From Akkermansiaceae bacterium (GTDB taxonomy: Bacteria; Verrucomicrobiota; Verrucomicrobiia; Verrucomicrobiales; Akkermansiaceae), in the NCBI GenBank assembly GCA_015062055.1, contig SUVK01000003.1:1-64000 (forward strand): a stretch of DNA of 64,000 bases. Direction: 5' to 3'. Positions 1 through 43,397 of this stretch are shown piece by piece. The number at the start of each line of letters is the position of its first letter. The stretch's first letter is position 1. The notes beneath the pieces were generated by a model, which worked only from the letters and a program-made list of their open reading frames with translations, searched no databases and was not told the DNA's origin. Made by a program: the position numbers and the translations under genes.

Positions 1-317
1 CAGCGTGGTTGTGAGAGCAGCCTTCGCCGTGCACGTGTTCTTCTGTGGCGTGGTCAGCGTGGTTGTGAGAGCAGCCTTCGCCGTGCACGTGTTCTTCTGC
101 GGCGTGGTCAGCGTGGTTGTGGGAGCAGCCTTCGCCGTGCACGTGTTCTTCTGTGGCGTGGTCAGCGTGGTTGTGGGAGCAGCCTTCGCCGTGCACGTGT
201 TCTTTTGCGGCGTGGTCAGCGTGGTTGTGAGAGCAGCCTTCGCCGTGCACGTGTTCTTCTTTTGCGGCGTGGTCAGCGTGGTTGTGAGAGCAGCCTTCGC
301 CGTGCACGTGTTCTTCT
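1..317. repeat. 54-bp direct tandem repeat, about 6 copies, cut by the window edge; one copy carries a 3-bp insertion
   Basis: Unit cagcgtggttgtgagagcagccttcgccgtgcacgtgttcttctgyggcgtggt starts at 1, 55, 109, 163, 217 and 274; on the minus strand it encodes an 18-aa repeat. Confidence 0.95.
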
Positions 318-382
318 GCATGGCTGAGTGTGCAGAATGCGCTCAAGGACGACAAAAACAGGGTGATACGAGAAAATTTCAT
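1..382 (-). CDS. Partial secreted His/Cys-rich repeat protein (probable metal-binding, possibly N-terminus of a CusB/CzcB-type adaptor); continues beyond window
   Basis: Not in ORF track because it runs off the edge. Minus strand reads [22 protein letters not shown] then (K/E)[16 protein letters not shown](A/T) repeats without stops; ATG overlaps the upstream gene stop as ATGA. Confidence 0.85.
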
Positions 383-1662
383 TGTTGATTAAAAGTGGGG
401 TTAAGGTATTGAAGTTTGCAACGTGCCTCCAGCAATTCGGACAAACAGTCTAAGTAAGTAATGTGGCGCTCGTAGGCTACGTGGCGAGATTCTGCTAATT
501 CCAGAATACTGGTTTCGCCTAATTTAAAGAGAGCTTCTTGATGATTAGCTGCGTTCTCAAGCTCTTTGAGTCTCGTAAACTCGGTAGTGCAGTGATGGTG
601 CAGCAAATGTTGTTCGTTATCCAAGAGAGTAGCTTGTTGAACAAGCTTGCACCATTCGGTGATAAGCTCCGCCTGTTTGAGGGCGCGGTCTCCCGTTGCT
701 CGTGCAATGGCCTCGCGATTGCGGTTCCATATGGGGAGCGAAAAGGAGAAGCCGAGCGATACTTTGTCGTTGCCTCCATCGCGTGCATAAAGCGGGGATA
801 TCCCCAGCTCCGGGTATTGCTTACGTATCTCTGCCCGTAATTCGGTTTCGGACGCCCCATAAGCAGCCTGCATGGCCAAGAGCGAGGGTGTGTTGAGCAA
901 GAGGTCGGGTGTGGGCGCGCTTACGGTACCGGGTACGCCGTGGGGCAGGTGCCCGCCTAACTCAATATCACCTACAGCGGGGTGCAAGCCCAACTTCTCG
1001 ATGAGCTCGTTACGCTGGCGCAGGTGCTCGGTCTCCAGTTCCATTAGCTCACGGCGAGTATCGTTGAGTCGCTGGGTCGCCACTTGAAACGCCCCGAAAT
1101 CAACTTCGCCCAACTCATACAATCGAGTGATTTTCTCTTGCTCGTCCTGCATGACGGCAAGGCGTTTTTTCATAACATCCAACTTGGTATGAGTTACCAT
1201 AATACGGTGGCGCAGGCATTCCAGCTCCATCATATAACGACGTTCGGCCGCGCGCATCTCCCAATAATCGCTTTCTTGGTATTGCTCGGCAATTTTGGCG
1301 GACAGCGCGGGCAGGCCGGTCACCGGCAGGGTAAGTCCGGGCGAGATAGCGTTGTTGGTAATGTTTTCGCCGAACACACGCTCGAGCTCAAATGAGATGG
1401 TTGGGTCTTCCCACAACCCGGCAAACTCTGCTACCGAGGTGCTCTTGGCGACTTTCAAACGTGCTTGATTGAGGTCTCTGTTCAGCAAAAGACCAATATC
1501 GAGCATTTTCTCGCGGCTCAAGTGGGTACCTTGGCACAGCATAGTAGAGATCTGCGCCCATTCTTCAGTTTCAAGACTCAGGTCTATCGGTTCTGCTTGG
1601 TATGTAATGCAACTGCTCAGCGCCATGGCGCACAAGGCTGCTGTGTAATAGTGAATTTTCAT
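379..1662 (-). CDS. TolC-family outer membrane efflux lipoprotein (CusC/CzcC-like)
   Basis: Lipobox-like LSSC; helical OEP-type sequence [11 protein letters not shown]...[20 protein letters not shown]; flanked by His/Cys-rich genes. Confidence 0.8.
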
Positions 1663-1762: not shown

Positions 1763-2152
1763 TTAAATCAATAGCGGGCAGCACCGTGTGTCCGGTGGCT
1801 CCCATAGCCCGACACGCTCCAAAGTGAGCGTCACCATGTGGTGTGCATTAACATGGCATCGGTGAAAACTCGGCACTTCAATAATCTCGACATTGATGTC
1901 GGCAAACTCCGGCAGAGAAATATGGCCGGATGTGGGCTGCATTTCGTTCTCTACATGGGTGCAATGGTGTTGTGGCTGTTCTTGCTTCTGCTGTTCGCTC
2001 TTGTGCAAGTGACCGTGCTTACAGCCACACGTGTCACCCATGTAAACAGTCTCATGATGACAAGTGCATACACTGAAAGCTCCACCGGCAGCCACAGCCG
2101 GTAATATCAGCAGTGCCAGCAGTATCTTCACCCATGTCCATACGCGTATCAT
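1763..2152 (-). CDS. Small His/Cys-rich signal/TM-anchored protein of the metal-efflux operon
   Basis: N-terminal hydrophobic segment, then CTCHHETVYMGDTCGCKHGHLHKS...HHCTHVE. Confidence 0.65.
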   Translation of the reverse strand: MIRVWTWVKILLALLILPAVAAGGAFSVCTCHHETVYMGDTCGCKHGHLHKSEQQKQEQPQHHCTHVENEMQPTSGHISLPEFADINVEIIEVPSFHRCHVNAHHMVTLTLERVGLWEPPDTRCCPLLI

Positions 2153-2164
2153 ACGTATGGTTTC

Positions 2165-2193
2165 ATTTTACCCCCCTTGACCTATCTTGTCAA
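2165..2193 (-). promoter_or_regulatory. Sigma70-like promoter of metal operon with TTGAC-N7-GTCAA palindrome across -35/spacer
   Basis: Minus strand TTGACA-N17-TAAAAT; palindrome TTGACCTATCTTGTCAA at 2177-2193. Confidence 0.65.
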
Positions 2194-4028: not shown

Positions 4029-4817
4029 ATGAAACGCAGCCTTATTATTTATACTATCGGTTTGGTATTGTCGGCCATTGTCTTGGGTGCTGCCGCAGCT
4101 CTATTTGTAGGGCGCAAGTTGTTTGAGAATAAATCTGCTGATTCTGTGCTTTCTCCTGAGCAATCCTCTGTTTCCGAACAGACGCCTGCCACCGCACCCG
4201 AGCAACCAGCCGTGACCGCGCCGGTGCCCGCACCCGAGCAACCTGCCGTGACCGAGCCGGAGCCCGCACCCGAGCAACCTGCCGTGACCGAGCCGGAACC
4301 CGCGCCCGAGCAACCTGCCGTGACTGAGCCGGAGCCCGCGCCCGAGCAACCCGCCGTGACCGCGCCGGAGCCCGCACCCGAGCAAAAAGTTTTACCCAAA
4401 GACCCCGATATTCAAAAAATCATAGATTCATTGTCCACTCTTAACGAGCCCGAGTTACCCACTCTTGTTGCGGCTGCGCAGAAAGGCGACGTGGCAACAG
4501 TAACTCAACTTATTGATGCCGGAGCCGATATCAACGTGCAAGATGTAGCCGGCTACACCCCACTCATTGCAGCCGTTATGGCCGATAAACCCGAGGTGGT
4601 AAAGTTGTTGCTGGATGCAGAGGCTAATCCTAACATTGCAGATGTTCTCGGTGTTACCCCTCTTATGTATGCGGCCTACAAGGGACAAACGGAGGTTGTG
4701 CGTCTACTGCTGGCCGCCGGTGCAGATAAAACGATGGTCGACAAAAGAAAGGTGCCTGTTCAACTGTATGCTCAAGAGAGTGGAGTGCCCGAGATTATTG
4801 AGCTTTTGAAAATATAG
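4029..4817 (+). CDS. Membrane-anchored ankyrin-repeat protein with PEQPAVTEPEPA linker
   Basis: N-terminal TM, Pro-rich repeat, ankyrin repeats (GDVATVTQLIDAGADINVQDVAGYTPLIAAV...). Confidence 0.85.
   Translation: MKRSLIIYTIGLVLSAIVLGAAAALFVGRKLFENKSADSVLSPEQSSVSEQTPATAPEQPAVTAPVPAPEQPAVTEPEPAPEQPAVTEPEPAPEQPAVTEPEPAPEQPAVTAPEPAPEQKVLPKDPDIQKIIDSLSTLNEPELPTLVAAAQKGDVATVTQLIDAGADINVQDVAGYTPLIAAVMADKPEVVKLLLDAEANPNIADVLGVTPLMYAAYKGQTEVVRLLLAAGADKTMVDKRKVPVQLYAQESGVPEIIELLKI
4193..4383 (+). repeat. Low-complexity repeat encoding (PEQPAVTEPEPA)n
   Basis: About 36-bp repeating units cccgagcaacctgccgtgaccgagccggagcccgcr. Confidence 0.85.
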
Positions 4818-42845: not shown

Positions 42846-43397
42846 ATGTTTTTCTTAATCACCTTTAAATACATCGTTTTCGCTCTGCTGTTGATGGTTT
42901 CAGCCCTGCTTCTTTTGCTTGTGCTGATGCAGCGCCCCAAGCAAGAAGGTCTTGGTGCTGCATTCGGTGCTCAGATGACTGATCAGGCTTTCGGTGCCCG
43001 CACCACAGATGTGCTCAAAAAGGGTACTATTATTTTCGGCTCTCTTTTCATGATTCTTTGCTTCTTGTTGAGTGTACTCATGCTCAACGAACATAAAGAA
43101 AAAAATAAAACCGAATTGGGCCAAACCAACAGCAACGCCGTTCAGCCCGGTGTTGTGACAAATAATGCTCAGACAACTGCCGCTCAGACCTCCACCGAGC
43201 AACCCGCCGTTGAGCAACCTGCCGCCGAGCAGCCTGCTGTTGAGCAGCCCGCCGTTGAGCAACCTGCCGCCGAGCAGCCTGCTGTTGAGCAGCCCGCCGT
43301 TGAGCAACCTGCCGCCGAGCAACCTGCCGCCGTTGAGCAGCCTGCCGTTGAGCAGCCTGCCGTTGAGCAGCCCGCCGTTGAGCAGCCCGCCGCCTGA
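42846..43397 (+). CDS. secG: Preprotein translocase subunit SecG with (EQPAV/A)n C-terminal tail
   Basis: SALLLLLVLMQRPKQEGLGAAFGAQMTDQAFGARTTDVLKKGTIIFGSLFMILCF. Confidence 0.88.
   Translation: MFFLITFKYIVFALLLMVSALLLLLVLMQRPKQEGLGAAFGAQMTDQAFGARTTDVLKKGTIIFGSLFMILCFLLSVLMLNEHKEKNKTELGQTNSNAVQPGVVTNNAQTTAAQTSTEQPAVEQPAAEQPAVEQPAVEQPAAEQPAVEQPAVEQPAAEQPAAVEQPAVEQPAVEQPAVEQPAA
43197..43395 (+). repeat. 15-bp-periodic coding repeat in secG tail
   Basis: gagcarcctgccgyyg units encoding EQPAV/EQPAA. Confidence 0.9.

Follow-up and report, generated by a model that had tools for sequence, protein, structure and literature searches.

A variable histidine- and cysteine-rich repeat array as the likely metal-binding arm of an RND pump adaptor in Akkermansia

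The window analyzed here, a 64,000-nucleotide stretch of an Akkermansiaceae bacterium genome, begins inside a tandem array that encodes the N-terminal arm of a periplasmic adaptor protein. We consider it likely that these repeats form an arm on the adaptor of a tripartite heavy-metal RND pump and that the arm binds metal, either raising its local supply or gating the pump. The His/Cys arm and a family of small proteins encoded upstream of it both extend through most of the genus Akkermansia and are present in A. muciniphila.

The repeat array and its continuation past the contig edge

The features at the start of the window are as follows.

1-316 (1-319 by TRF), minus strand: 54-bp His/Cys array, from TRF and a listing of the units
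317-382, minus strand: signal peptide, at the 5' end of the adaptor gene
2..382, minus strand: 5' part of the RND periplasmic adaptor gene, 127 codons, with synteny in L024 and L070
5..388, plus strand: ORF antisense to the adaptor gene, judged spurious
379..1662, minus strand: TolC/CusC/CzcC-type outer membrane factor (OEP PF02321, two stretches)
1763..2152, minus strand: small exported-looking protein of 129 aa, about 100 bp upstream of the TolC-type gene, in the position of CzcI
2165..2193, minus strand: sigma-70-like promoter, TTGACA-N17-TAAAAT, with 11/12 consensus matches, upstream of the small gene

On the minus strand, the frame from 382 to 2 is open over 127 codons, and its translation has a signal-peptide-like start followed by repeat units. 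At 1-319 TRF reports a unit of 54 bp in 5.9 copies, with 95% matches and a score of 576. These visible copies make up six units of 18 aa (the first of 19 aa), spaced 19, 18, 18, 18 and 18 residues apart, and each unit contributes 5 His and 1 Cys. The 13-residue cores of the units have the same protein sequence, and at the DNA level they differ only in synonymous TCT/TCC serine codons; the units are therefore recent copies. The adaptor ATG overlaps the TGA stop of the TolC-type gene as ATGA. The original prediction of an unlisted minus-strand gene, with a signal peptide and 18-aa His/Cys units, is thus borne out by the open frame, TRF and the unit listing, and its coupling to a TolC-type efflux gene can be read directly in the sequence.

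The window starts at the first base of contig C11, in a genome of 87 contigs, and the sole other copy of the repeat in that genome lies at the end of contig C62. There the repeat frame (G000:C62:3-1370, L003) spans 455 codons: a few further units come first, and an adaptor domain (HlyD_D23; RND_mfp; CzcB/NccB-like) follows. The next gene, 13 bp past the adaptor, encodes an RND protein of the CusA/CzcA family. The best join of the two contigs, which rests on overlap and synteny rather than on a read, is an overlap of 126 bp with 1 mismatch and gives about 7 units. Overlaps of 180 bp (4 mismatches) and 72 bp (3 mismatches) can also be drawn, and more units are possible too; since contig C11 ends at the window edge, the assembly does not fix the copy number. 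The order is unbroken in two other Akkermansia loci, L024 and L070, which read DNA glycosylase (UDG), small gene, TolC, adaptor and RND. Assemblies of many relatives break at the array as well, with many matches stopping at contig edges.

Both the HlyD/CusB domain and the RND pump that had been predicted past the window edge are found on C62, and an early stop with no metal-efflux genes beyond it, for which C62 was checked, is absent. Two roles had been proposed for the repeat protein. The extended N-terminus of a CusB/CzcB adaptor is the correct one, as the C62 frame goes from repeats into the HlyD_D23/RND_mfp adaptor; the free-standing periplasmic metal scavenger fails, because the same frame reaches the adaptor without a stop. 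A separate secreted scavenger would suit the window alone, in which the ORF stays open up to the edge, but intact long-arm homologues are also single ORFs, of about 460-610 aa, and, provided that C11 and C62 do join, we reject this reading as hardly tenable. The repeat frame is not a product of chance, because it continues on C62 into a homologous adaptor and because the architecture recurs across the genus. The plus-strand ORF at 5-388 is open too, but it is antisense to this signal-bearing frame running into the conserved adaptor, and its product consists of hydrophobic repeats that end over the adaptor gene start; that it is a real gene is next to impossible.

Other repeats in the window are a 36-bp tandem array (PEQPAVTEPEPA repeats) in a plus-strand gene at 4029-4817, followed there by apparent ankyrin repeats, and a 15-bp, Glu/Pro-rich array at 43197-43392.

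The adaptor and pump compared with known efflux systems

The adaptor scores 35.1 bits (1.1e-8) against HlyD_D23 (PF16576), above the cut-off of 30, and 86.9 bits (1.2e-24) against RND_mfp (TIGR01730), slightly under the cut-off of 94.9. It lies in an operon with an outer membrane factor and an RND pump, as expected of a CzcB/CusB-type adaptor. In an AlphaFold2 model of the L124 orthologue, built from an alignment of 50 rows, most of the core exceeds a pLDDT of 90, whereas almost the whole stretch of residues 21-105, which corresponds to the arm, stays below 50. In this model and its Foldseek matches we find the domains of an adaptor: alpha-hairpin, lipoyl, beta-barrel and membrane-proximal. 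The best PDB matches are ZneB (2.6e-19) and CusB (1.3e-17); whole-length TM-scores are low, as they should be when a protein is hinged and its arm is disordered. Thus, the protein is predicted to have a standard adaptor fold plus a disordered N-terminal arm. ZneB, of the ZneB/ZneA pair, is both the top fold match and the closest PDB adaptor by sequence, although identity to its solved chain is only 19%.

The pump matches ACR_tran at 3.1e-226. Its best NCBIfam match is the CusA/CzcA family TIGR00914 (635.6 bits, 1.4e-190; below the cut-off of 701), and its best PDB match is CusA. Two routes to the transported metal were tried. A Cu(I) assignment failed, since the CusA methionine triad M573/M623/M672 is absent from the pump, which has F/A/S at the aligned positions. 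A DFG-D-EN motif in a membrane helix marks CzcA-type exporters of divalent cations (PMC11647595). A divalent-metal assignment by this motif failed as well: the pump has AVAVGDVVDNAIIFVEI in its place, conserved across the genus. By its His/Cys composition, the arm could suit Zn, Cu, Ni, Co or Cd. Among the matches listed, the closest plasmid-borne RND protein, from Methylorubrum (37% identity), adjoins copper genes; it does not settle the metal, because it differs from the pump at the metal positions.

It is instructive to set the system beside characterized pumps. In CzcCBA of Cupriavidus metallidurans, CzcB as read from pMOL30 has a His-rich N-terminus and a C-terminal EHGH, and the gene order is I-C-B-A. 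The Akkermansia system shares the His-rich adaptor N-terminus, the His-bearing C-terminus and an operon order of small Cys/His protein (CzcI), CzcC, CzcB and CzcA. However, CzcB has only a short His stretch, with no tandem array and no Cys, and after it an additional N-terminal region that has no counterpart in the Akkermansia adaptor, and CzcA carries the DFG-type motif, whereas the Akkermansia RND protein, 28% identical to it, does not. CusB/CusA and SilB/SilA are likewise tripartite heavy-metal RND systems, and CusA is the closest solved pump; yet the Akkermansia arm has His/Cys repeats instead of the methionines of CusB and SilB, and F/A/S replace the CusA triad. A His-rich, CzcB-type adaptor is therefore a known kind. 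What makes this variant worth testing is its long tandem arm, which contains Cys and differs between lineages, along with the near-invariant tail and the absence of both metal motifs from the pump. Our literature search found no paper on the His/Cys arm of the Akkermansia adaptor.

Variation of the arm within and beyond the genus

The adaptor was found in 67 of 76 genomes of the genus Akkermansia. Nearly every species has an N-terminal repeat of its own (EHVHGPGCSHDHAAETKA, HEHGEGCTHDHAAEA, HDEHSQCSGHDHAAEHK, DDHSHA and others), while the core is conserved and the last ~15 residues (AGHFHADGxFHEGE) are nearly invariant. When 50 adaptors are compared with one reference, identity averages 27% in the arm, 49% in the core and 83% in the tail. 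In the same set, the median His content of the arm is 25%, versus 2% for the core, and His count follows arm length with r=0.95. Arm and signal together span about 35-243 residues and hold 2-65 His. Comparison of close species supports a changing repeat copy number: L082 and L084 have cores that are 99.2% identical and carry 57 versus 65 His, and L108 has 28 His versus the 20 and 19 of L110 and L111, with cores 98% identical.

Some species reach 65 His and 13 Cys per chain. Together with a His count that scales with length, and with the six adaptors per pump that a CusB-like assembly would have, such chains would offer hundreds of ligands. The arm might then mainly store or buffer periplasmic metal, as a tethered, metallothionein-like sink for which handover to the pump is secondary. 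In the loci read, however, every arm is fused to a pump adaptor and none stands alone, and the tail motif carried by the same chain stays constant. We therefore regard storage as an unlikely main role.

At the other extreme, the arm amounts to no more than a stub of ~16-28 residues with 2-5 His in about eight species known from rabbit-derived MAGs, and the pump can therefore do without a long one. That these species manage with a very short arm, together with the hypervariable length, species-specific units and low identity of the arm elsewhere, is what one might see in a near-neutral, slippage-prone, low-complexity extension tolerated on the free-hanging N-terminus of the adaptor. Unstructured His-rich tails can arise with little selected function. 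However, drift would not keep His near 25%, and across independent repeat families (Akkermansia, Opitutales and Kiritimatiellae) it is the His/Cys composition that is kept and not the sequence; we judge a near-neutral arm improbable.

The stub-arm species are L153, L154, L156-L160 and L162, and the small upstream gene is likewise missing from those whose upstream region was inspected. This rabbit-MAG clade is thus without both the small protein and the long arm. A general co-loss of the two was rejected, as L025 and L071 retain long arms although the small gene is apparently missing there.

Outside the genus, none of the sampled genomes of its order gave a match to the adaptor core at E<=1e-40, and the adaptor had no match among the plasmids searched. 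Relatives are carried by gut Opitutales and Kiritimatiellae, as found in a scan that was seeded partly on the tail motif and so favors its holders. The motif AGHFHADGxFHxGE is common to adaptors of gut Opitutales and Kiritimatiellae/Lentisphaerae (L178, L179, L184-L198). With the tail motif present in these gut groups and no orthologue found in the sampled non-Akkermansia genomes of the order, it is possible that tail-motif adaptors have spread horizontally in guts.

The upstream small protein and the proposed role of the arm

The 129-aa protein encoded before the TolC-type gene has a hydrophobic N-terminus, CxC and HHC motifs, and a C-terminus that reads PPDTRCCPLLI-stop. By hand count, equivalents precede TolC in about 42 of the 52 loci with enough upstream sequence. 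The invariant positions of their alignment are one Cys and one C-terminal Pro, with a PP pair nearly invariant; the proteins are otherwise very divergent, and most end in P-L-(L/R)-(I/C)-stop. The TolC-type protein itself begins with MALSSC, which by eye is lipobox-like.

Proteins of the CutF group are small and exported, with Cys and C-terminal proline motifs, and precede OEP/CusB/CusA genes; CutF controls translation of the next gene (PMC9973294). The 129-aa protein resembles CutF/DUF2946 and CzcI proteins in its hydrophobic, signal-like N-terminus, its Cys motif, its C-terminal proline motif and its position directly before metal genes. It differs in its ending, PP...P(L)(L/R)(I/C)-stop, and in the lack of a profile match: it has no Pfam or NCBIfam match, and comparison with the CzcI profile gave a probability of 2%, which is no match. 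Membership in the CutF/DUF2946 or CzcI families was therefore rejected in favor of a shared layout. Because sequence membership failed, we claim a functional likeness only, in that the protein may be a metal-responsive leader working as CutF and CzcI proteins do.

A CutF-like leader would be expected to have an RNA structure that masks the ribosome-binding site of the next gene. In the window copy, a conserved RNA hairpin between the small gene and TolC has no support (z about 0). Predicted RNA folds at this position are strong in L097, L099 and L100, with z of -3.8 to -5.0. One sigma-70-like site was found where 1.1 are expected by chance, which leaves the promoter suggestive only. In L093:1-4200, a 72-aa HMA-like (CxxC) ORF precedes TolC, and the distance from TolC to the adaptor is about 2 kb.

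In CusB, metal is bound by the N-terminal 61 residues, which confer partial resistance; the protein also hands metal to CusA and activates it (PMC4446572). Extra metal sites in CzcA/CzcB proteins have been proposed to give flux control (PMC11647595). By analogy with these systems, we infer that the Akkermansia arm collects metal and presents it to the pump, or gates the pump. Once the signal peptide is removed, the His/Cys units would form a disordered periplasmic chain by the metal entrance of the pump. The adaptor ring occupies the periplasmic face of the pump, so that the arm would place many His/Cys ligands close to this entrance. There it would bind transition-metal ions weakly at many places, and the bound metal would raise the local supply or gate the pump, much as has been proposed for the extra CzcB sites and shown for the methionine-rich CusB N-terminus. 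The near-invariant C-terminal HFHADGxFHEGE tail may provide a second, fixed metal site beside the pump, and repeat number, being free to vary, would tune capacity. More tentatively, the arm and the small protein might together act as a metal rheostat, in which arm copy number sets the pump's capture of metal and the CutF/CzcI-like family couples periplasmic metal to translation; we hold this to be possible rather than probable.

What looks like a low-complexity repeat, and breaks many Akkermansia assemblies, thereby becomes a concrete element of metal homeostasis that can be tested in a prominent gut genus. Arm lengths form a natural series, with 2 to 65 His on an adaptor that is itself conserved, and this series lends itself to asking whether repeat number tunes a transporter. 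Finally, the upstream small-protein family, absent from both Pfam and NCBIfam, is a plausible metal-sensing leader.
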